Shown here: positions 7,865-49,238 of the stretch, piece by piece | Layout: each line of letters begins with the position of its first letter | Numbering within the stretch: position 1 is the stretch's first letter | Assembly (NCBI GenBank): GCA_903867885.1 | Contig: CAIPTD010000058.1 | Location: forward strand, 1 to 64,000 | Origin: an uncultured Ferrovum sp. | GTDB taxonomy: Bacteria > Pseudomonadota > Gammaproteobacteria > Burkholderiales > Ferrovaceae | Length of the DNA stretch: 64,000 nucleotides | Reading direction: 5' to 3' | Translations under genes and position numbers: made by a program | Notes under the pieces: model-generated | Database searches by the model: none | The model's input: the letters and a program-made list of their open reading frames with translations, nothing else | What the model was told of the DNA's origin: nothing

Positions 7865-9202
7865 TCAGCCAAGTGCTATAAAGCTGACCTTGGCGACAAG
7901 GCCGCCGCCCTCACGCTCGCTCAATGCGAACTTCGCATGGTGGGATTGCGCCAGGCGGTTCACGATAGCCAGGCCCAGGCCCGCACCTGTGGAGCCGTTA
8001 CGCGAGGGGTCCAGTCGGGTGAAAGGTTGCATCAATCGTGCGATCTGATCTTCAGGTATGCCCGGTCCGCGATCTAAAACGGCTAGCACTACTTGATCAC
8101 CATCACGATAGATCTGCAATTCAATAGGCGTCCCCCCATAGCGCCAAGCATTTTCCAACAGGTTGTTGATGATACGGCGTACTTGGATGGGGTTCATGCG
8201 AATGCGTAAGTCATTCTGAATAGTGCAGATAACTGGGCGATGTTGAACCCGAGCGCCTTCTGCAACTTGATGAGCTAATTCTGATAAGTCATGAGTTTCT
8301 AAATGAACGGGCTCCGGCGCCCGAGCAAAATCCAAGAATTGGCTGATGATACGGTCCATCTCTTCGATGTCTAAGGCCAGTTGCTGCAACTCTGCAGGAT
8401 GATCTACCCCCATCATTTCCACCCCTAAACGAAGACGTGATAAAGGAGTACGCAAGTCGTGAGATATTCCTGCCAAGAGCAAGGTGCGGTCGGTTTCTGC
8501 TTGCTTTAGGTGCCCCGCCATTTTGTTTACCGCCAGGGCAAGGTCGTTGACTTCTTTGAGGCCATTACTAGGCTGGATGGGTATTGGAGTTTGGCCTGCA
8601 GCCAAATTTAAAATTTGTTTTTGTACCGCCGCCAAGGGTTGATTTACACGCTTAACTAAACCCCATGCCAGAAATACAGCCAGTAACACGCTAGATAGAA
8701 TCAGTATGGCGGCGGTATAGGGAAAGTTTCTGTCAAACTGAAACCGCTGCCCCTGAATCCACCAAGCCCCACCCTCTAGAGGCAGGTAAATCCAAGTTTT
8801 CTGGGGGTTCAAATCCTTTTCGATGTAGATCGCTGCTTCAGGAGATATTTCTTTCTTAAGGCGTTCTTCAATCAGCGCGAGGCGGGGCGAAAGTTCTTTT
8901 GAGGCTGAAGGGGGAAGCGTAGCTTCAGAGGCGGGTGTGAGTTTATAGATCGATCTCTTTGCAATATCGTCAGCGTAAATCTTCCGCTCTGCGGGGCTCA
9001 TTAGACGTAATGCTTGATACATTGAGAGCAAATTATTAGAGCCTATTCTCACCAACTGTGATCCAAATTCATCGATCACGTAGCGCTGAAATACCCATTG
9101 AGAAGCGATTTGGGTGCCAATCACGACCAGAACCAAAATTAAAATGGTTTGGCCAAGAAGCGTCTTAGGTGAAAATGATTTGGGTAGTAAATGGATTGGC
9201 AT
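7865..9202 (-). CDS. envZ: EnvZ-type sensor histidine kinase
   Basis: Inner-membrane sensor kinase, 445 residues, partner of the OmpR-type regulator encoded immediately upstream (9 bases between them). Two membrane segments (about 18-37 and 163-183) flank a periplasmic domain. A HAMP linker follows, then the phosphoacceptor motif GISHDLRTPLSRLR (His248), the N-box NNLLENAWRYG (near 346-356) and G-boxes DRGPGIP and GTGAGLGLAIV-like sequence near the end. This is the EnvZ subfamily layout and all catalytic motifs are present. It probably controls envelope or porin genes in response to osmolarity or pH, as in related bacteria. Confidence 0.92.
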   Translation of the reverse strand: MPIHLLPKSFSPKTLLGQTILILVLVVIGTQIASQWVFQRYVIDEFGSQLVRIGSNNLLSMYQALRLMSPAERKIYADDIAKRSIYKLTPASEATLPPSASKELSPRLALIEERLKKEISPEAAIYIEKDLNPQKTWIYLPLEGGAWWIQGQRFQFDRNFPYTAAILILSSVLLAVFLAWGLVKRVNQPLAAVQKQILNLAAGQTPIPIQPSNGLKEVNDLALAVNKMAGHLKQAETDRTLLLAGISHDLRTPLSRLRLGVEMMGVDHPAELQQLALDIEEMDRIISQFLDFARAPEPVHLETHDLSELAHQVAEGARVQHRPVICTIQNDLRIRMNPIQVRRIINNLLENAWRYGGTPIELQIYRDGDQVVLAVLDRGPGIPEDQIARLMQPFTRLDPSRNGSTGAGLGLAIVNRLAQSHHAKFALSEREGGGLVAKVSFIALG

Positions 9203-9211
9203 AAGCGCAAT

Positions 9212-9964
9212 TTAATCCGGCACGAATACATAGCCAAAGCCCCATACGGTTTGGATGTGTCTGGGTTGACTAGAATCGGTTTCGATCAAACGCCGAAGCC
9301 GGGAGACTTGCACATCAATGCTTCGATCAAAAATTTCATGATCCCGCCCACGTGCCATATCCATCAAGCGTTCTCGAGATAACGATTCGCGCGGGTGGCT
9401 GGCCAGGACTTTTAACAGGGCAAATTCACCGCTGGTGAGGGGCATCAATTCCCCATCTTTTTTTAGTTCGCGGGTAGTGATATTCAAGCTAAAGCGCCCA
9501 AAACGAATATCTTTAATTAATTCTTGGCTTGGTGCTGAAGGAATTCCGGGGGATGGCAAACGGCGCATAATAGCGTTGATTCGCGCCACCAATTCACGCG
9601 GATTAAATGGCTTGGCAAGATAGTCATCCGCGCCCATTTCTAAGCCTACAATACGATCTACCTCGTCGCCTTTTGCGGTCAGCATAATAATGGGGATGGT
9701 ATTATCGTTGGCTCGCAGGCGACGGCAAATGGATAAGCCATCCTCACCAGGCAGCATCAGGTCTAAAACAATCAGATCAAAAGGGTCGCGGGCAACGACT
9801 TTATCCATGAATGAAGCATCGGGGGCGACTTCAACCGTGAACCCTTGATCAGATAAATAGCGTCGCAACAATTCACGCAAACGCACATCATCATCAACAA
9901 CAAGAATGCGCACCTTGCGTCGAGCAATGCTATTTTTTGAAGGTTTTTCCTTAATGGAGTTCAT
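9212..9964 (-). CDS. ompR: OmpR-type response regulator
   Basis: 250-residue transcription factor with a receiver domain (acidic pair Asp24/Asp25, phosphoacceptor Asp68 in IVLDLMLPG, Thr96, Lys118 in LAKPF) and a C-terminal winged helix ending in VWGFGYVFVPD. All receiver residues are intact, so it should be phosphorylated by the adjacent EnvZ-type kinase. First gene of the two-gene operon; a 93-base divergent region separates it from the phosphoesterase gene at 10058. Confidence 0.94.
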   Translation of the reverse strand: MNSIKEKPSKNSIARRKVRILVVDDDVRLRELLRRYLSDQGFTVEVAPDASFMDKVVARDPFDLIVLDLMLPGEDGLSICRRLRANDNTIPIIMLTAKGDEVDRIVGLEMGADDYLAKPFNPRELVARINAIMRRLPSPGIPSAPSQELIKDIRFGRFSLNITTRELKKDGELMPLTSGEFALLKVLASHPRESLSRERLMDMARGRDHEIFDRSIDVQVSRLRRLIETDSSQPRHIQTVWGFGYVFVPD

Positions 9965-40763: not shown

Positions 40764-41510
40764 GTGAACCCCGCATCATCTCCTCTGATTGGCACCCCCG
40801 TTTTAGTGCCCAACCAACACGAACTCCAACGCGGTGAGGTGTGCCGCTATCCCATTCGATTAATTTTAGCCAATCCTCAACCCATGGTGATGTGGAGTCA
40901 GCGGGTTCTGATAGAGCAATTCGCTCGGCACATTGAAGTCGTGGGAGAAGTATTGAACATAGCGTCTCTTGAAGAACTGCTTTCTGTATCTATTACGACT
41001 GTCGTCTTACTCGATATTTCGTTGATGACCATAGAGACCCTGCCCCAGATTCAAGAGTTAATCCAACACCATTCCACGCAAGTGCTTGTGATTGGAAACA
41101 GTTCAGAGGAATGGTTGAAGCGAGAAGGTATTGCCCATGGTATTCGCGGTTTTATAGACAGAGATGACCCGCCACCTAAGTTATTTCGAGGCATTGAAGC
41201 CCTTCACAATGGAGATACCTGGTTAAACCCAATTTGGTTATCTGGCTCCACCCAGCAATTTTCACACAGGCCAACATCACGAAGAGATACGACTGCAAAA
41301 GGGAGGATTGCCTCGCTCACTAAATGTGAATATCAAACGATGATTTTCATGCATAAGTTGGGTGGAGAAAAAAATGATGTAGTGGCAGATGCATTGAATA
41401 TTAGTCCTTCCACCCTGCGAAATCGTCTTTCCATTATCTATGAAAAATTGGATGTACCTGGTAAGGCAGGGTTAATTTTATTTGTCGCTGAAAACGGGCT
41501 AGAGCATTGA
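40764..41510 (+). CDS. degenerate LuxR/NarL-type response regulator
   Basis: 248-residue two-domain transcription factor: receiver-like domain at 30-150 and LuxR-type helix-turn-helix at 185-245 (LTKCEYQTMIFMH, VADALNISPSTLRNRLSIIYEKLDV). Asp84 occupies the phosphoacceptor position, but the two N-terminal acidic residues read Ala36-Asn37 and the conserved Lys region reads FIDRD, so metal binding and phosphorylation are doubtful. GTG start 8 bases after GGA. The stop overlaps the start of the desaturase-creatininase fusion (TTGA), so the two are translationally coupled; the tad locus follows 2 kb on. It may regulate either. No kinase gene is nearby. Confidence 0.78.
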   Translation: MNPASSPLIGTPVLVPNQHELQRGEVCRYPIRLILANPQPMVMWSQRVLIEQFARHIEVVGEVLNIASLEELLSVSITTVVLLDISLMTIETLPQIQELIQHHSTQVLVIGNSSEEWLKREGIAHGIRGFIDRDDPPPKLFRGIEALHNGDTWLNPIWLSGSTQQFSHRPTSRRDTTAKGRIASLTKCEYQTMIFMHKLGGEKNDVVADALNISPSTLRNRLSIIYEKLDVPGKAGLILFVAENGLEH

Positions 41511-43363
41511 TTTACCCCTATCTGTTTGGGCGCCTGATGGCGCCCTTTCAAGCTGTATTCCTGCCTGAAGAACGGTTATGTTGGGTTTATCTCTTATCTG
41601 CAGTACTCATTGCAGGATGGGCGCGCGGTAAATTGAAACGGTTTCGTTGGTCCAAAATTAAATTGTATTTTTTCTCTTGGAAAACTTCAGCTTTGCTGGA
41701 CTATCGTTTTTTTATCGTCAATCGCGTGCTGTTTGGATTGTGCTTCAGCCCACTTTTTTTGGCATTGAATGTTTGGGTGTCGAGTGCGTGTGAAATTTAT
41801 TTGCATCAGTATCTTCCCTTATTGCAAGGAATCGCCGCAGTCCATTTTGGAATAAGAAATGGATGGAACGATCTTGCTCTGACCCTTTTTTCATTGATTG
41901 CAATGGATGTGGCTTTTTTTTTAAGTCATCGCTTACAACACCGTGTGCCGGCTCTTTGGGCATTTCACAAAGTACATCATTCAGCGCAGGTGTTAACACC
42001 GCTGACAGCCTACCGGGTACATCCTGTAGATGACATTCTTTCTTTAACATTGTCCGCTTTGTTGGTGGGCGGTGTGGAAGGCATTTTTGCTTTTATCACA
42101 TCACATTCCAGTCATGTTTTAACTTTGGCTGGGGTACAAATTGGTCTAGTCATTTTCTACATGGCAGGTTTCAATCTTCGTCACTCTAGAGCTTGGATGA
42201 GTTATGGAACGTTTTGGAGCCATTGGTTTATTAGCCCTGCTCAACATCATATTCATCACAGTGTGAAACCGGAGCATTTTGATAAAAACTTTGGATTTAT
42301 TTTTGCGTGTTGGGATCGATGTTGTGGATCACTACTGATTCCATCTAAAGCACAACACCTTCGGGTTGGCCTTACTACAACCACAGATGATGTGAACTTT
42401 GATTCAGTTTGGGGATTGTACTGTCATCCCTTTATCGCCTTATGGCATGGATCAAGATCAAGATTTGTTGGCCTGCTGATTGCGGTTTTGATGGCCGAAA
42501 TCATATGGATTAATGCCTCAGCTGCTTACCAAGCCCTTTCAGCTCGAAGTGTGTTCTTGGAAGACCTCAGTAGTCCAGAGGTCAAGACTTTGATTTCTGC
42601 GGGCTATGATACTTTGCTCATACCCACTGGAGGATTAGAACAAAACGGTAACCATATGGCGCTTGGTAAGCACAATAGTGTGTTGCGCTACACCAGTCAG
42701 CATATCGCTCTTCAGTTGGGTCACACCCTTGTTGCCCCATTGATTCCCATTGTTCCAGAGGGTCAATTTCATCCTGCTACTGGGCATTTGCAATGGCCGG
42801 GTACCCTGGGGCTTTCTTCCGGAGTGTTTGAGGGCGTTCTGTTAGATATTGCTCAGAGTGCTGAACTGCATGGTTTTCGCTATGTATGTTTTATTGGCGA
42901 ACACGGTGAAAGCCAAGTCAGCCAAATGCGCGTAGCTCAAAAAATCAATCAGGATCAAACGCGTTTTTCTCATCGTTTCTCTGCGCTAAATGTCGATGCG
43001 TATTACGAGGATGCTGAGCAGCGGTCATGGTTGTTGTCTAGAGGGGAGACAGAACAGACGATTGGGCATCATGGGGGGATCATTGATACTTCGGAGTTGA
43101 TGGCGGTTGAGCCTGGACGAGTGGGGCTGCAAGTCGTATCTAAAATACGTGCGGTGGGTAATTTAGAGGCCATTCCATATCGGGCTCCGGCTGCGCCTGG
43201 CGCACCCGCCCAGAGCCATTTCGATTTATTGGGTGGGGAGCTTAAGGAGGGATCGGATGGCCAGCCGAGCCGAGCATCTGCGTCTTACGGGCAGGTGTTG
43301 ATCAATCTCAAAATCAAGCATGCGGTTACGCAAATTCAAAACTGGAAATCTCATATTTCTTGA
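41507..43363 (+). CDS. sterol desaturase/fatty acid hydroxylase-creatininase fusion
   Basis: 618-residue fusion. Residues about 20-310 are an integral membrane fatty-acid-hydroxylase domain with the di-iron histidine clusters HRLQH (141-145), HKVHH (154-158), NLRHS (223-227) and QHHIHH (246-251). A last membrane-like segment (321-341) leads into a creatininase-family domain (350-600) with LEQNGNH (Glu378, His383), LGKHN and GEHGES (His466, Glu468). The pattern EQNG..LGKHN belongs to a creatininase subgroup usually exported by itself, so the joining helix may be a former signal peptide and the C-terminal domain may face the periplasm (inference). TTG start overlapping the regulator stop; ATG 41537 is an alternative. 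Confidence 0.85.
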   Translation: MIYPYLFGRLMAPFQAVFLPEERLCWVYLLSAVLIAGWARGKLKRFRWSKIKLYFFSWKTSALLDYRFFIVNRVLFGLCFSPLFLALNVWVSSACEIYLHQYLPLLQGIAAVHFGIRNGWNDLALTLFSLIAMDVAFFLSHRLQHRVPALWAFHKVHHSAQVLTPLTAYRVHPVDDILSLTLSALLVGGVEGIFAFITSHSSHVLTLAGVQIGLVIFYMAGFNLRHSRAWMSYGTFWSHWFISPAQHHIHHSVKPEHFDKNFGFIFACWDRCCGSLLIPSKAQHLRVGLTTTTDDVNFDSVWGLYCHPFIALWHGSRSRFVGLLIAVLMAEIIWINASAAYQALSARSVFLEDLSSPEVKTLISAGYDTLLIPTGGLEQNGNHMALGKHNSVLRYTSQHIALQLGHTLVAPLIPIVPEGQFHPATGHLQWPGTLGLSSGVFEGVLLDIAQSAELHGFRYVCFIGEHGESQVSQMRVAQKINQDQTRFSHRFSALNVDAYYEDAEQRSWLLSRGETEQTIGHHGGIIDTSELMAVEPGRVGLQVVSKIRAVGNLEAIPYRAPAAPGAPAQSHFDLLGGELKEGSDGQPSRASASYGQVLINLKIKHAVTQIQNWKSHIS

Positions 43364-43529: not shown

Positions 43530-43715
43530 ATGCGAGCTTTAATTCAATCTGCACTACATTTTTTGCGAGATGAAGAAGGCGCGACTGCCGTGGAATATGG
43601 GTTGATCATCGCGCTGGTAGGGGCCGCCATTACGGTTGCGGTAAGTAATTTAGGTAGTGGCCTCACCTTGGTGTTTACCAATATTGCAAACAAAATCACC
43701 CTTGCCGCGGCTTGA
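43530..43715 (+). CDS. flp: Flp/Fap type IVb major pilin
   Basis: 61-residue type IVb pilin. The prepilin site G17/A18 precedes the motif ATAVEYGLI, whose Glu and Tyr are typical, then one hydrophobic helix. It is the subunit of the Tad pilus, assembled by the following ten genes and strongly translated from AAGGAGA. Confidence 0.93.
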   Translation: MRALIQSALHFLRDEEGATAVEYGLIIALVGAAITVAVSNLGSGLTLVFTNIANKITLAAA

Positions 43716-43724
43716 GTAGCAACG

Positions 43725-44171
43725 ATGATCACGTCACTTATGCCTGCTATTGATGCCCGCTTAGTGGGGCTCATTCTTCTGGTCAGTGCCGCCGCCGCTT
43801 GGGATATCACTGCAAGGCGGATTCCAAATCTCTTACTTTTAGCAGGAGCACTGACCAGTCTTGTACTACTGATTCAGTCTCGTGGTTGGTTTGGGCTGAC
43901 AGATTGGATAGCAGGGGGAGGATTGATGCTAGCCCTCTTTCTGATTCCTTATGTGCTAGGTATTTTGGGTGCAGGAGATGTGAAATTGATGGCCACTATT
44001 GGATGTTTTTTAGGGCCTATCGCAGCTTTTTGGAATGGGGTGATGTGTGCCTTCAGTGGTGGCGTTTTGAGTCTGATGGTACTGGTTTTATTACCTTGGG
44101 ATCGCCCTGTTTCACGCATTCCCTATGGCGTTTCTATCGCCTTAGGCACCCTTACTTTTATTGCACTATAA
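43725..44171 (+). CDS. cpaA: prepilin peptidase TadV/CpaA
   Basis: 148-residue inner-membrane aspartic peptidase of the A24 family with about five hydrophobic segments and the two catalytic Asp sites: WDITARRIPN at the N-terminus and GAGDVKLMATIG. It processes Flp and probably the TadE-like pseudopilins. Confidence 0.9.
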   Translation: MITSLMPAIDARLVGLILLVSAAAAWDITARRIPNLLLLAGALTSLVLLIQSRGWFGLTDWIAGGGLMLALFLIPYVLGILGAGDVKLMATIGCFLGPIAAFWNGVMCAFSGGVLSLMVLVLLPWDRPVSRIPYGVSIALGTLTFIAL

Positions 44172-44186
44172 AAAAGGATTGTCATC

Positions 44187-44921
44187 ATGAATCTAAGTCG
44201 CTTCCTACCTCTTAGCCTGCGTCATTTGAGAGCGTTTGCTTTGTTCTTGGGTTCTGCTGCCCTCGCGTTTGCTTCAGTTTGGATTGCCGAAAAAGAGTTT
44301 GCAGTTACACGTGCTCCTGCTGCAATTCAAATGGCCAGCACTATTCCAGTTCAGCATCAGGAGGACTCTCAAGCCTTATCCCATAAACTCACTCCCGGTA
44401 TGCGCGCAATGTCTGTTCGAGTGAATGAAGTAGCTGGCGTGGCGGGCTTTGCGTTACCTGGGAGCTATGTTGATATCCTAGTGAATATGCAGGAAGCGCA
44501 TGCCTCAACGATGGGAAACGAGCAGAGCATTTCAAAAATCATCTTAGAAAAAGTATTGGTCTTAGCCGTCGCGCAGGAGACCAGCCACGATGATAAAAAG
44601 CCCAAGGTAGTCAATGCAGTGACCTTACAAGTCACTCCCGAGCAATCCGAACTCCTGGATCTCGCACGTAATGTAGGCACGCTCTCTCTGGTTTTACGTA
44701 ACCAAGCTGATCTAGCCCTTGCTCCTTCCTCAGGGGTAAGCCGAAAAACTTTATTGGCCGGAATACTTTCTCCTGAGCTTGCGCACCCTCATGCTCCATC
44801 GTCTTCAAACGGTTTGATTTCTGCTGAATCAATAAAGCCCAGCGATACCCAGAAAATAGAATTAATTAAGGGAAGTGACCATGTCACTTTTTTTTCGGGG
44901 AAGAGGGAGGGCCCTCAATGA
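44187..44921 (+). CDS. cpaB: Flp pilus assembly protein CpaB/RcpC
   Basis: 244-residue periplasmic protein: N-terminal membrane segment (17-38), then an SAF domain (LTPGMRAMSVRVNEVAGVAGFALPGSYVDILVNM) and a C-terminal TLQVTPEQSELLDLARNVGTLSLVLRN. CpaB supports secretin assembly. Overlaps cpaC by 4 bases. Confidence 0.88.
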   Translation: MNLSRFLPLSLRHLRAFALFLGSAALAFASVWIAEKEFAVTRAPAAIQMASTIPVQHQEDSQALSHKLTPGMRAMSVRVNEVAGVAGFALPGSYVDILVNMQEAHASTMGNEQSISKIILEKVLVLAVAQETSHDDKKPKVVNAVTLQVTPEQSELLDLARNVGTLSLVLRNQADLALAPSSGVSRKTLLAGILSPELAHPHAPSSSNGLISAESIKPSDTQKIELIKGSDHVTFFSGKREGPQ

Positions 44922-46603
44922 CTTCATCCACAGCCACAGCCTTGATCTCTTCCCAACAAACCATGCTATGCGGATACCTGGCTTTATCATTCTTGATGAG
45001 CGCGGAACCTTGTTGGTCTGCAACTGATGCCCCGCATCAGATTGCACTGAAATCAGGCCAAGCAATCACTGTCTCATTGCCAGAATCCGTCCGTCGAATC
45101 GCTTTGGCAGACCCCAGCGTGGCAGATGTGAACTTATTGAACGCTAGAGAAATATATTTACTAGGAAAACGCTCTGGGAATACTAACCTACTCATTTGGT
45201 CGACCAATCAAAAAACACAAACCATAGAGTTAGAAGTCGGTCTCAATTTGCAGCCTTTGCAATCAGCATTTCAACTTTATTTCCCAGAGGAAATCAGTCT
45301 CAAAGTAAGTCAGGTAGGCACTAGCATAGTGTTAAATGGAACAGTTGCTGATACGGTGAAAGCGCATCAAATTCTTGTATTAGCTCAAGCGTTTATCAAT
45401 ATGTCGGGTGCGACATCGCTTTCTTCTGGGCCACACTCTTCTGAGGCAATGCTCTCATCACATTCATCCAGCTTTCCCAACCGGTTTGACTCGCTTCGTA
45501 CACAAAGCGCAGCTCTCCCTCAAGCTATAGATTTAAACTCAAGTAGTCCTATTGGAGGTCAACTCCAACTCATTAATCTACTCAAAATCGCTGCCCCACA
45601 ACAAGTGCGACTGGATGTAAAAGTTGCAGAAGTATCAAAAACCTGGCTGCAACAATGGGGTGTAAAAGTAGGCTTAAATAGAACGCAAGGAGAATGGAGC
45701 GCTTCTCTAGGTTCAGCCCTGTCTAATTTAGCCTCCCCTGCAAATTTATCACTAGAGTTTGGCTCCGGTGAGGCGGCGATATCGGTGACACCACTCAGCC
45801 AAGATAGTCTGATTAAAACCTTGGCAGAACCCAGTTTGCTGGCGATCAGCGGTCAGCAAGCCAGTTTCTTGGCAGGCGGAAAAGTTTTTATTCCTGTTGT
45901 GCAGAGTTCAGCTCAAGGGGCTCCCCTTTCAAGCTTGGAAGAAAAGGAATTTGGTATTGCCCTAAAATTTACTCCCACAGTCTTAAATGGAGGGCGTATC
46001 CATCTAAAAGTGGCACCTGAAGTCTCTGAACTCAACCCGCAAGGGCTAGGTTTGGCAGCTAATGGAGTGAGTGGCCAAGCCATTCTTCCTTTATTCACTA
46101 CTCGCCGTGCGAGCACGGCGGTTGAGCTGCGTGATGGAGAGAGTTTCGCGATAGGTGGTCTGATGCAAAACAATATCAATTCAAATATTCAAGCTATTCC
46201 TTGGCTTTCAGATATTCCGGTATTGGGTGCATTGTTTCGCAGCAGCCAATTTCAAAAAGATGAAACAGAGTTATTATTTGTCGTCACGCCACATTTGCTT
46301 TCACCCAGCGATACTAGGCTGCCACTTCCTACTGACCGCTATAGTGAACCTTCTCAGAAAAGATTCTTTTTTGAAGGAAAACAACAAGAAGAAGCGGATC
46401 TTTCTCTCTCTCACCTAGACGAAAGTCCATACTCTGGTTTTATGCCTGAGGGGCACTCGGCTGAATGGAGCCAACCCAGACTAGATAGCGATGCAAGCAC
46501 GGCCTTACATGCCTTTGATCGCTATCAAAATGATGATGGTGTTCCGCTCCCTCTGGTTGGGCTCCCCAGAAACGCATCATCCTTGATGGGTGGGGCGCCA
46601 TGA
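44918..46603 (+). CDS. cpaC: Tad secretin CpaC/RcpA
   Basis: 561-residue outer-membrane secretin. BON/N-domain at 50-160 (QAITVSLPESVRRIALADPSVADV), then the secretin core with QVRLDVKVAEVSKTWLQQWGV, IKTLAEPSLLAISGQQASFLAGG, and the C-terminal RDGESFAIGGLMQNN...IPWLSDIPVLGALFRS signature. The secretin forms the pilus exit pore. ATGA overlaps on both sides. Confidence 0.92.
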   Translation: MTSSTATALISSQQTMLCGYLALSFLMSAEPCWSATDAPHQIALKSGQAITVSLPESVRRIALADPSVADVNLLNAREIYLLGKRSGNTNLLIWSTNQKTQTIELEVGLNLQPLQSAFQLYFPEEISLKVSQVGTSIVLNGTVADTVKAHQILVLAQAFINMSGATSLSSGPHSSEAMLSSHSSSFPNRFDSLRTQSAALPQAIDLNSSSPIGGQLQLINLLKIAAPQQVRLDVKVAEVSKTWLQQWGVKVGLNRTQGEWSASLGSALSNLASPANLSLEFGSGEAAISVTPLSQDSLIKTLAEPSLLAISGQQASFLAGGKVFIPVVQSSAQGAPLSSLEEKEFGIALKFTPTVLNGGRIHLKVAPEVSELNPQGLGLAANGVSGQAILPLFTTRRASTAVELRDGESFAIGGLMQNNINSNIQAIPWLSDIPVLGALFRSSQFQKDETELLFVVTPHLLSPSDTRLPLPTDRYSEPSQKRFFFEGKQQEEADLSLSHLDESPYSGFMPEGHSAEWSQPRLDSDASTALHAFDRYQNDDGVPLPLVGLPRNASSLMGGAP

Positions 46604-47148
46604 AGACATTGAATTCTTTAAATAGCTGTTCCTCCCTAACGCTCCGTCAGGGTATTCAAGGCTCTATTGCGATCCTGGCGGCGCTCTCATTGTCTGCGCT
46701 AATCGGTATGATGGCTTTAGCCATAGACCTTACCCGTTTTTTCATAGCGCAAAATCAGTTGCAATTTATTTCAGATAGTTGCGCATTAGCCGGGATCGCT
46801 GCTTTGCCATGTGCAAGCATTAATACGACTTCCACAAGCTGCGCAGCGGTCGATTACGCAAGGGCTTCAGAGGCCGGACAGCGAATCGCGCAAACCAATC
46901 CAGTGCCGGGTAGTGATGCCATCACCAATGTAAGTTTTCCGCAGAGTAATCGAGTACAGTGTCAAGTACAGTTGGATGGTTTTCTGCCTTCTCTATTGCA
47001 AGCCTTTGGAGTGGGCACACAGAACCTTCAGGCCCAGTCAATTGCAACAGTATGGCCCCAACAAACATCCTGCCCACTTTGTGGTAGTTCGCATTTTGCG
47101 GGTGCAATCAATAGCACTGGAAGCCTTATTCCGGTATTGGTGCGATAG
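46600..47148 (+). CDS. short TadG-like protein
   Basis: 182-residue protein with one hydrophobic segment near the N-terminus (GSIAILAALSLSALIGMMALAIDLTRFF) preceded by a positively charged tail, the pattern of TadG/TadE-type pilus proteins. Full TadG proteins are much longer and carry a von Willebrand domain, which is absent. The C-terminus contains CPLCG and several other cysteines. Confidence 0.65.
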   Translation: MKTLNSLNSCSSLTLRQGIQGSIAILAALSLSALIGMMALAIDLTRFFIAQNQLQFISDSCALAGIAALPCASINTTSTSCAAVDYARASEAGQRIAQTNPVPGSDAITNVSFPQSNRVQCQVQLDGFLPSLLQAFGVGTQNLQAQSIATVWPQQTSCPLCGSSHFAGAINSTGSLIPVLVR

Positions 47149-47151
47149 GCA

Positions 47152-47610
47152 ATGCAGTCTCAGCGTGGAGCGGCAGCGATTGAATTTGCCATTGTTGCGA
47201 TTCCTCTCATTACGCTTTGTTTTGCCGGATTGGAATGCAGCTTGGCGCTGCAGCGCTTTCAAGCATTACAATTTTCAGTGGCGGCGGCAGTCCGCTATCT
47301 TTCCCTTTCTCAGCCTGGTGACAGCAGCGCCATGCTAACGGCTCAATGCCTTGCCATTACAGGCACACCCAATGTCAGCCTCAATCAATGCACTGATGCA
47401 CCTATCGTTCCTGGCGCTAAGCTTTTCAATGCTGAGGTCTGTGATGTTGCTCAATGCAGTCATCCTCAACAAATGATCTTGGCAGACGGTACACATCTCA
47501 ACCTCGTTTCAGTCAGCACCCGTGATATTGAGATGACTGATTTTCCTGAATGGTTAGACGTGCTGGTTTTTCCCAACATTCAGTATTCAATGGTGCAGCC
47601 TTCAGCATGA
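47152..47610 (+). CDS. tadE: TadE-like pseudopilin
   Basis: 152-residue pseudopilin: RGAAAIEFAIVAIPLITLCF, the TadE-type hydrophobic N-terminus with the Glu near position 10, followed by a Cys-containing periplasmic domain. Likely processed by CpaA. ATG at 47152, 3 bases after the preceding stop. Confidence 0.8.
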   Translation: MQSQRGAAAIEFAIVAIPLITLCFAGLECSLALQRFQALQFSVAAAVRYLSLSQPGDSSAMLTAQCLAITGTPNVSLNQCTDAPIVPGAKLFNAEVCDVAQCSHPQQMILADGTHLNLVSVSTRDIEMTDFPEWLDVLVFPNIQYSMVQPSA

Positions 47611-48035
47611 ATTCTCAGAGAGGAGCGACAGCAATTGAATTCGCCTTGATTGCCAGTATTTTTTTGATGCTGGTAATTGGCATGCTGGAATGCGCAAGGC
47701 TCATGATGCAGATAAACACCGTGGCTGCTGTGAGCCAAATACTCGCAAGATCGGCTTCTGTTTGTGATGTAAAAAAGATCAATGTTGCCTCTGTTCTCAA
47801 TCAATTTATGCCAGGTCTGCCCGCTGAGTTACTCAGTGTGGACTATCTTCCATCCGGCTGCGACACAACAAATTGCCAGTGGGTTCAAGTCAAAACGCAG
47901 ATTGGAATTCCACTTAATAGTCTCAACCCTTTTTTCAGTTCTTCTTTAAACTGGCCCGCGCTGATCTTTACTTTACCAAGAGAGAGTTTAAGTCATTCAG
48001 CAAGCGACTCAATGAACCCCGTGTGTTCTTGGTAA
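47607..48035 (+). CDS. second TadE/TadF-like pseudopilin
   Basis: 142-residue pseudopilin with RGATAIEFALIASIFLMLVIGMLECARL at the N-terminus. Starts at the ATG that overlaps the tadE-like stop (ATGA); an upstream in-frame extension adds no family sequence. Two TadE-like subunits are usual for tad loci, where one is TadF. Confidence 0.78.
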   Translation: MNSQRGATAIEFALIASIFLMLVIGMLECARLMMQINTVAAVSQILARSASVCDVKKINVASVLNQFMPGLPAELLSVDYLPSGCDTTNCQWVQVKTQIGIPLNSLNPFFSSSLNWPALIFTLPRESLSHSASDSMNPVCSW

Positions 48036-48077
48036 AGCATATTTTTAATCAATCTTAGTTCTAATGAGGTCACACCC

Positions 48078-49238
48078 TTGCATCCTTCTACTATCGCTGT
48101 TGTCTCCCCTCTCTCAACGCAACTCCTGGATCTAGGGCAAAGGCTCAAACGTATCCCTAATATCGGGTCGGTGATCACTATCCATAGTGACCTGCAAAAT
48201 CTGCCTGATCTTCAAGATCCTCCTGATGTGGTGATTGCAGCAGATCCTTTTGAAGAATATCAGTCAATGGATGCCCTGGCCCGTTTTGTGATGCGCTATC
48301 CGCGTACTCGTCTAGTCGTGTGTTCGAGGCAAAACTCAGCCGATTTTTTGATGCATGCCATGCGGAGTGGCGTGCGTGAAGTGATACCCCCAGAGGCGAG
48401 TGATGAATTCCTGTTAGAAGCAATGCGACGCATTCAGTCACAACAGCATCCGGCCTTAGAACAAGAAGGCACAGTGATGTCTTTTATTTCTTGCAAGGGA
48501 GGAGGAGGCGCTTCATTTCTAGCCACCAATTTAGCCTATGCGTTAGCTTCTCAGCACAATAAGCGCTTAGCAGTGATTGATTTGAATTTACAGTATGGTG
48601 ATGCTGCCTTATTTGTATCTGATCAAAAACCTGCCACGCATCTAGGGGAGTTGTGTCAGAAAATGCGGCACCTCGATGCCTCTCTTTTGTCTGCAGCAAT
48701 GCTCCCTGTGTTGCCAAATTATGGCTTATTGGCTTCTCCAGAAACGCCTGCGCTTGCATCGGATATTCAAGCTGGCCAAATTGCATCCATTATTCGTTTA
48801 GCACGCAGCCAATATGATTATGTGATTCTGGATATAGGTCGCGGACTGGATCAGGTGGGATTCACAGCCCTAGAGCTTTCAGATCAAATTTATCCTATTC
48901 TGCAAAATACAATTCCCTACATCCGCGATGGAAAAAGGCTATTGGGCTTAATGCAATCTATGGGATATGAGGATGAAAAAATCTTCCCGGTGGTCAATCG
49001 ACATGATCGCGAAAGTGAAATTACGATCAAGCAATTAGAAACAGCCTTGGCAAAAAAAATAGCACTGACGATTCCCAATCATTATTCAGCCGTTGCGGCA
49101 TCAGTGAATCAGGGTGTACCTGTTGTGAAACTTGCCAAGGCTAGCCCTGTAGCAAAGAGTTTATTGAATTGGGCCAGCAAACTATCCGGGAAATGTCAAA
49201 ACACCCCTCGTGGTTGGATAGCAAGAGTTCTGCACTGA
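48078..49238 (+). CDS. cpaE: Tad pilus localisation ATPase CpaE/TadZ
   Basis: 386-residue protein with an N-terminal receiver-like domain (TIAVVSPLSTQLLDLGQRLKRI, no clear phosphoacceptor) and a MinD/ParA-like ATPase domain. The P-loop reads CKGGGGASFLATN, an atypical form lacking the usual second Lys, as in TadZ proteins. TTG start supported by GAGGT 8 bases upstream. It positions the Tad machine at the pole in other bacteria. Confidence 0.87.
   Translation: MHPSTIAVVSPLSTQLLDLGQRLKRIPNIGSVITIHSDLQNLPDLQDPPDVVIAADPFEEYQSMDALARFVMRYPRTRLVVCSRQNSADFLMHAMRSGVREVIPPEASDEFLLEAMRRIQSQQHPALEQEGTVMSFISCKGGGGASFLATNLAYALASQHNKRLAVIDLNLQYGDAALFVSDQKPATHLGELCQKMRHLDASLLSAAMLPVLPNYGLLASPETPALASDIQAGQIASIIRLARSQYDYVILDIGRGLDQVGFTALELSDQIYPILQNTIPYIRDGKRLLGLMQSMGYEDEKIFPVVNRHDRESEITIKQLETALAKKIALTIPNHYSAVAASVNQGVPVVKLAKASPVAKSLLNWASKLSGKCQNTPRGWIARVLH

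Follow-up and report, generated by a model that had tools for sequence, protein, structure and literature searches.

A membrane di-iron hydroxylase joined to an exported creatininase-like domain in Ferrovum, and its recurrence as a fusion or as neighbouring genes

The fused gene and its domains

In a stretch of 64,000 nucleotides from an uncultured Ferrovum sp. (assembly GCA_903867885.1, contig CAIPTD010000058.1, positions 1 to 64,000; hereafter the window), a single gene encodes an N-terminal membrane di-iron hydroxylase and a C-terminal exported creatininase-like domain, and we found that these two domains are recurrent partners across several classes, either fused or encoded side by side. 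The window lies on contig C58 of a genome of 2.19 Mb in 164 contigs (genomes, contigs and loci are designated below by G, C and L numbers, the window genome being G000), and the features of the gene are collected in Table 1. The frame has a TTG start, which aligns with the ATG of the protein of a sister species (G004), and its 618 codons are translated without an internal stop. The initial annotation of this DNA had named the two domains, complete histidine clusters, an extra hydrophobic segment and an EQNG...LGKHN variant of the metal site, and all of these were borne out: the Pfam matches placed the N-terminal half in the FA_hydroxylase family (E 4.2e-21, 76.2 bits, cut-off 31) and the C-terminal half in the creatininase superfamily (E 5.3e-28, 98.5 bits, cut-off 31.3), ten histidines (H141, H145, H154, H157, H158, H172, H226, H247, H250 and H251) were invariant in 38 aligned hydroxylases, the linking segment reached a Kyte-Doolittle mean of 2.57 over its best 15 residues and was modelled as a helix, and the variant lies at residues 378-390, in the creatininase half. 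Elsewhere in the window genome the hydroxylase half had a second match, on contig C111, and PF02633 had one match in the genome at E ≤ 0.001.

Table 1. Positions of the fused gene, its parts and the preceding regulator in the window
Feature	Position	Strand	Details
LuxR-type regulator	40764..41510	+	GerE match marginally over its cut-off; sub-threshold receiver match
Fused gene, membrane di-iron hydroxylase (N-terminal) and exported creatininase-like domain (C-terminal)	41507..43363	+	618 amino acids
FA_hydroxylase domain	41885..42331	+	residues 127-275, Pfam PF04116
Histidine clusters HX3H and HX2HH	41927..41980	+	residues 141-158; kept in 38 aligned relatives
Last histidine cluster HX2HH	42245..42259	+	residues 247-251; kept in 38 aligned relatives
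Linking hydrophobic helix	42461..42541	+	residues 319-345; model helix
Creatininase domain	42560..43327	+	residues 352-607, Pfam PF02633
Altered metal-site motif EQNGNHMALGKHN	42638..42676	+	residues 378-390; 1Q3K alignment and 54-row comparison

Recurrence of the pair

We scanned genome_contigs with an alignment of eight hydroxylase sequences, which confirmed 561 stretches; in the best 80 of these we sought a partner with a profile of the exported creatininases. A creatininase partner was present in 15 of these 80 hydroxylase loci, which contradicts the earlier opinion that the domains are not usual partners; nine loci had it fused (L039 of Methylobacter, L042 of Vampirovibrionales, L044, L045, L052 of Silicimonas algicola, L059, L087 of Robiginitomaculum, and L104 and L107 of Nevskia) and six as a neighbouring gene (L038, L040, L050, L060, L063 and L075). 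Contig ends truncate several of the loci, which makes 15 a minimum, and L076, where a creatininase with a weak match (66 bits) lies at a distance of about 3 kb, was left out of the count. Eight of the nine fused loci are titled as metagenome-assembled genomes (MAGs), so that single assignments, above all that to Vampirovibrionales, may be binning errors. Altogether we collected 12 fused proteins, those of the window and G004 included, from Pseudomonadota and one Vampirovibrionales MAG, and 12 neighbouring rows, which amount to 11 distinct loci since L040 and L140 are identical. The creatininase lies downstream on the same strand in eight of the 11 (L038, L040, L060, L063, L124, L141, L142 and L143), and the genes are divergent in L050 and L075 and convergent in L014. 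Relatives with two separate genes, which had been envisaged at the outset as a sign of a frame joined by error, thus do exist in these 11 loci, but fused relatives exist as well and the frame is no error. The fusion is genuine; it combines known families in a new way and has an altered active site. Among the open-access papers listed, none was found to describe the pair (no search of domain databases for this architecture was made, and a description elsewhere is possible).

The fused gene of G004, which belongs to the same genus, is an open frame of 592 residues with 67% identity to that of the window over residues 4-543, and the gene order is the same as in the window: yaeQ, the LuxR-type regulator, the fusion and a prepilin-peptidase-like gene, the last named by reading its sequence. 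Such identity between the same neighbours excludes chance and sequencing error, and the check in related genomes that the initial annotation had proposed finds both the fusion and the adjacent regulator in G004. In a search of 150 genomes for relatives, G004 was the only other genome that matched across both halves. Between the two species, the ratio of nonsynonymous to synonymous substitution rates (dN/dS) was 0.138 for residues 1-300 (dS 1.91) and 0.052 for residues 346-618 (dS 4.28, saturated); at such dS both values are rough, and the latter can be taken as a rough sign of purifying selection on the creatininase half.

To place the pair among other creatininases of its kind, we used the profile of the creatininase half at E ≤ 1e-50, a threshold chosen to stay within the exported subfamily. 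In the window's class such a gene was present in 3 of 369 genomes, in its phylum in 14 of 398 and in the class of G551 in 13 of 385; these three samples overlap, and the first two include the window's genome. With partners called within flanks of roughly 1.5 kb, 8 of the 14 in the phylum lay beside a YncE-like propeller gene, 2 were fused to the hydroxylase, 1 adjoined it and 3 had neither partner, and the 13 of the G551 class comprised 1 fused, 5 neighbouring, 2 beside YncE and 5 with neither, so that six of these 13 genomes have the hydroxylase fused or adjoining. Fourteen exported-creatininase genomes were also searched for the hydroxylase at E ≤ 1e-30; it was present in six, fused or beside the creatininase in four (G004, G112, G520 and G551) and elsewhere in the genome in two (G287 and G763), and absent from eight; two of the latter, G566 and G839, have creatininases similar to those of the pair.

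Trees of the two halves

The creatininase tree had 56 rows, and the 17 with a YncE neighbour all fell in one clade of 22 (support 100/99); the other five rows of this clade had neither partner in reach, and the fused and neighbouring rows were intermixed outside it. The label "fused" required four changes on this tree, at least one of them forced by well-supported branches. The hydroxylase tree had 97 rows, and one half of it, of 48 rows (Shimodaira-Hasegawa-like approximate likelihood ratio test, 95), contained all 24 fused or neighbouring rows together with 24 rows with neither arrangement; here the label "fused" required five changes, three of them forced by well-supported branches. Fusion or splitting has therefore likely happened repeatedly, as far as these trees indicate. 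The window pair grouped in the hydroxylase tree with the neighbouring-gene loci L038, L063 and L142, at a moderate support of 87.

Hydroxylase half and topology

The histidine clusters conserved in this family presumably bind iron in a di-iron site. We folded the hydroxylase half separately (residues 1-320; predicted local distance difference test, pLDDT, 90.1; predicted template modelling score, pTM, 0.89), since creatininases filled the list of PDB matches of the whole-protein model. The best PDB match of this half was yeast Scs7p (4ZR0; Z 4.5 over 171 residues), a weak match among 67 aligned chains, and Foldseek by itself found nothing for the model at E ≤ 0.001. Scs7p is a hydroxylase with sphingolipid substrates, and it is not known to carry a creatininase domain. 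Among the NCBIfam models, the only named hydroxylase matched was the ornithine lipid hydroxylase OlsE (NF052566, E 5.5e-10), which belongs to the same superfamily and differs in that its model, of 293 positions, lacks the creatininase half.

The loops of residues 43-66 (six K or R and one D or E) and 141-172 (four and none) are basic, which assigns the histidines to the cytoplasmic side and the C-terminal half to the periplasm; by these simple charge and hydropathy rules we suggest that the di-iron site is cytoplasmic and the creatininase half periplasmic. Charge and hydropathy thus favour the periplasmic location that the initial annotation had considered. Ahead of the creatininase domain there is a hydrophobic stretch in 12/12 fused, 12/12 neighbouring, 17/17 YncE-linked and 12/13 other rows, with net positive residues ahead of it in 11/12, 7/12, 16/17 and 9/13, respectively, counts made on stop-to-stop frames in which some upstream residues may not be translated. 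Helix 319-345, modelled at low confidence (pLDDT block means of 57-72), is predicted to be the last membrane crossing of the fused protein and to replace the hydrophobic N-terminus of its stand-alone relatives.

Creatininase half and its metal site

In the AlphaFold2 model of the whole protein, built from a 45-row alignment (mean pLDDT 86.9, pTM 0.68), the C-terminal CREATININASE half aligned with creatininase 1J2T over 241 residues (Z 24.7, root-mean-square deviation 3.9), so the modelled half has the creatininase fold. We take the ligands of the binuclear site of creatininase to be E34, H36, D45, H120 and E122, of which E122 is named in PDB titles. Aligned with 1Q3K, these correspond to E378, N380, H389, H466 and E468, so that the window protein keeps the residues of E34, H120 and E122, has N for H36 and H for D45, and lacks the full binuclear set; it differs from creatininase also in the hydrophobic segment ahead of the domain. 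Over 54 rows of the exported subfamily, E378 and H389 were present in all 54 and K388 in 53, and the 12 fused proteins were identical at E378, N380, K388, H389, H427, H522 and D527. The binuclear site thus appears altered throughout the exported subfamily, as the alignment indicates, with the surrounding positions fixed, and in the window protein E378, H389 and H466 could hold one metal. The variant site, from which another substrate than creatinine had been suspected, is present, but it is shared by the subfamily and is not peculiar to this protein.

The named enzymes of the superfamily matched well below their equivalog cut-offs, with 48 bits against 235 for creatininase (TIGR04448) and a similar 40.8 bits against 172 for MftE, the creatininase-family peptidase of mycofactocin (TIGR03964). 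Residues about 546-582 (43142-43252) form an insertion rich in A and P inside the creatininase half, which is absent from G004 and the other aligned relatives and within which residues 553-556 and 569-579 have pLDDT below 50.

The stand-alone exported creatininases beside YncE-like propellers, such as those of Paraburkholderia (L035 and L036), share the GKHN motif and the hydrophobic N-terminus, whereas they form the separate clade described above and have YncE instead of the hydroxylase as partner. We observed this arrangement in L035 (6031-8081), L036 (5965-8016), L004, L016 and L126-L133, from Burkholderiaceae and others. The YncE-like propellers whose ends were read (L004, L010, L016 and L017) all end in QPGRYSLGHTGN[LM]R, a conserved tail that may serve as a signal for processing or sorting. 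Nothing was found in the open-access literature for MftE or YncE together with creatininase.

Neighbouring genes and related hydroxylase loci

The stop codon of the regulator overlaps the start of the fused gene, and because of this overlap the fused gene probably shares a transcript with the regulator in the window's genus. The regulator was found in two of the 61 genomes searched (E ≤ 1e-20), the window genome and G004, both of which have the fusion. Across unrelated loci, no neighbour recurred beside the two halves in an analysis limited to families present in at least three loci and to frames of at least 90 amino acids, with families judged by eye; the remaining clusters were put down to related genomes (L060/L149/L150), to spurious frames that overlap, and to ABC-type and GTPase genes. 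Downstream of the fusion, positions 43531-49238 were read by eye as a Tad/Flp pilus locus with pilin, prepilin peptidase, RcpC- and RcpA-like, TadE/TadG-like and CpaE-like genes. A viral origin was rejected, as no relative was present among viral_contigs (phage records gave two weak hydroxylase matches, both under one Acinetobacter phage name), and so were a plasmid-borne fusion, since none of the 169 matching plasmid records covered 80% of the query at one place, and a defence system, there being no PADLOC match.

Hydroxylases of the same broad family occur in other combinations. In L108 (8926-10980) and L114 (2926-4983) they are fused to periplasmic solute-binding domains, for which the nearest NCBIfam models in L108 are 2-aminoethylphosphonate-binding proteins; in L115 (7764-9776) the partner is Acyl_transf_3, and in L075 (1827-3227) it is a VanZ-like domain, the locus also having the divergent exported creatininase. 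In six cyanobacterial loci (L041, L043, L046, L049, L051 and L062) the hydroxylase, at about 8970-9960, lies directly upstream of a non-ribosomal peptide synthetase (NRPS) gene, with NRPS domains verified by Pfam in L041 only and with a small frame between the two genes in L051. Kamptonema L101 (6812-14168) has two tandem hydroxylases followed by a C39-peptidase ABC exporter. These loci, L101 included, are possibly natural-product clusters. Plasmids of Pantoea (L032, 2083-6948) and Xenorhabdus (L033, 2846-6768) have in common a small cluster of an MFS transporter, a ferritin-like protein, a hypothetical protein and a membrane hydroxylase, to which the Pantoea plasmid adds a Gfo/Idh oxidoreductase and another gene; this cluster looks like a specialised-metabolite cassette.

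Discussion

We tentatively propose, and with considerable doubt, that the fused protein carries out two-step processing of an amide-bearing membrane lipid. The hydroxylase half would hydroxylate an amino-acid-containing lipid in the inner leaflet, as OlsE does with ornithine lipids; the hydroxylated lipid would then reach the outer leaflet, where the creatininase half, with a remodelled and possibly mononuclear metal site, would hydrolyse or open an amide bond of the head group, and fusion or gene coupling would hold the two steps together. That OlsE hydroxylates the ornithine moiety of ornithine lipids is stated in PMC3972451. The two domains with their histidines, the recurrent association of the pair, the predicted topology, the creatininase fold, OlsE as the sole named hydroxylase model matched and the seven residues that do not vary among the 12 fused proteins all speak for this proposal. 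We searched for genes of PF13444, the family of OlsB-type acyltransferases, and found them in 18 of the 23 carriers of the pair (8/8 and 10/15) and in 101 of 200 genomes of the phylum. At E ≤ 1e-30 they were present in 14/23 carriers, 7/34 genomes with the hydroxylase only and 37/200 phylum genomes, numbers to be read with the facts that three carriers (G000, G520 and G551) are also within the phylum sample and that the carriers are partly related to each other. One full protein and two fragments with PF13444 matches were checked against NCBIfam, and all scored below the OlsB cut-offs; the OlsB-like protein of the window genome scored 174 and 173 bits against cut-offs of 320 and 350. Its gene lies within positions 1825-10519 of L179 (contig C111), between genes read as ppk (polyphosphate kinase) and ppx-pst (exopolyphosphatase and phosphate uptake), and has the same neighbours in G004 (L181); this position would suit a phosphate-linked membrane lipid.

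Several observations weigh against this proposal. PF13444 was more frequent in the genomes with the hydroxylase only (31 of 34, hand-picked from the 65 loci without the pair among the best 80) than in the carriers, so the link does not follow the pair. Five of the 23 carriers had no PF13444 gene, so ornithine lipid is unlikely to be the substrate in every carrier, except if incompleteness of the genomes hides the gene; all five are titled as MAGs, and it may be missing from their assemblies. Moreover, PF13444 is not specific for OlsB, with matches in 2 of 14 control genomes, E. coli included, and the OlsE match itself is weak (39 bits against an equivalog cut-off of 475). Since the two sites are predicted on opposite faces of the membrane, the lipid would have to be flipped, and no lipid-synthesis gene was seen recurring beside the pair among the families judged by eye. 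Position 466, equivalent to H120, is S in 8/12 fused proteins and H in 4/12, and position 468, equivalent to E122, is E in 2/12 only (the window protein and L003); with the canonical binuclear ligands mostly gone, any amidase activity is putative. In addition, the absence of a hydroxylase of this group from 8 of 14 creatininase genomes means that the exported creatininase is not dependent on this partner.

The same loss of ligands, of H36 and D45 and often of H120 and E122 as well, would also fit a creatininase half that is no longer a hydrolase and serves as a binding or sensing domain, presenting or recognising the substrate of the hydroxylase, an explanation to which we give a modest probability. 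The fusions of hydroxylases to solute-binding domains (L108 and L114), to an acyltransferase (L115) and to a VanZ-like domain (L075) speak for it, the last from the same half of the hydroxylase tree as the pair and the other three all from the other half. However, E378, K388, H389, H427, H522 and D527 do not vary among the 12 fused proteins, dN/dS of the creatininase half is low (0.05, with synonymous sites saturated), and a single metal could still be bound by the three residues E378, H389 and H466 of the window protein, all of which tell against a mere binding role.

In a rather unlikely explanation, the substrate of the pair is a peptide or a natural product resembling one, which the hydroxylase would modify and on which the creatininase half would act as an exported peptidase, like MftE in mycofactocin maturation. 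MftE is among the best named matches of that half, Kamptonema L101 has its two hydroxylases beside a C39-peptidase exporter, and a cyanobacterial clade is sister to five alphaproteobacterial fused hydroxylases; in six of its eight loci an NRPS gene lies just downstream, which would fit a peptide substrate. On the other side, no NRPS, exporter or precursor gene was seen recurring beside the pairs, within the limits given for the neighbour analysis, and the MftE score is far below its cut-off. It is more doubtful still that the fusion supplies a membrane anchor only and that the enzymes belong to unrelated pathways expressed together: stand-alone copies of both halves are common and some creatininase genomes lack the hydroxylase, which speaks for it, but chance linkage does not explain a pairing that occurs as fusion, on the same strand, divergently and convergently in differing surroundings. 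Finally, the joining of two neighbouring genes by a sequencing or assembly error, for which we found nothing beyond the existence of same-strand neighbours in other genomes, was rejected and has a negligible probability, as G004 and ten further genomes have fused frames of the same two domains.

Returning to the two-step processing of an amide-bearing lipid, it may be carried further, to a broader picture which we consider improbable as a whole: an undescribed amino-lipid route in which an ornithine-like head group would be hydroxylated on the cytoplasmic side and a creatininase-fold domain, its metal site new and possibly mononuclear, would then open or close the amide or lactam ring of this head group in the periplasm. 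Creatinine is itself an example of such a lactam ring (cyclic amide). The fusions of related hydroxylases with solute-binding, acyltransferase and VanZ-like domains would then all follow a single plan, in which a membrane hydroxylase bears its partner on or beyond the membrane. If the product is a new amino-lipid modification, it would add a periplasmic step to a pathway that to our knowledge has been described only up to the cytoplasmic side. Functionally, the pair offers an entry to two groups with few known substrates, the bacterial membrane hydroxylases of the "sterol desaturase family" and the exported creatininase subfamily with its altered metal site.

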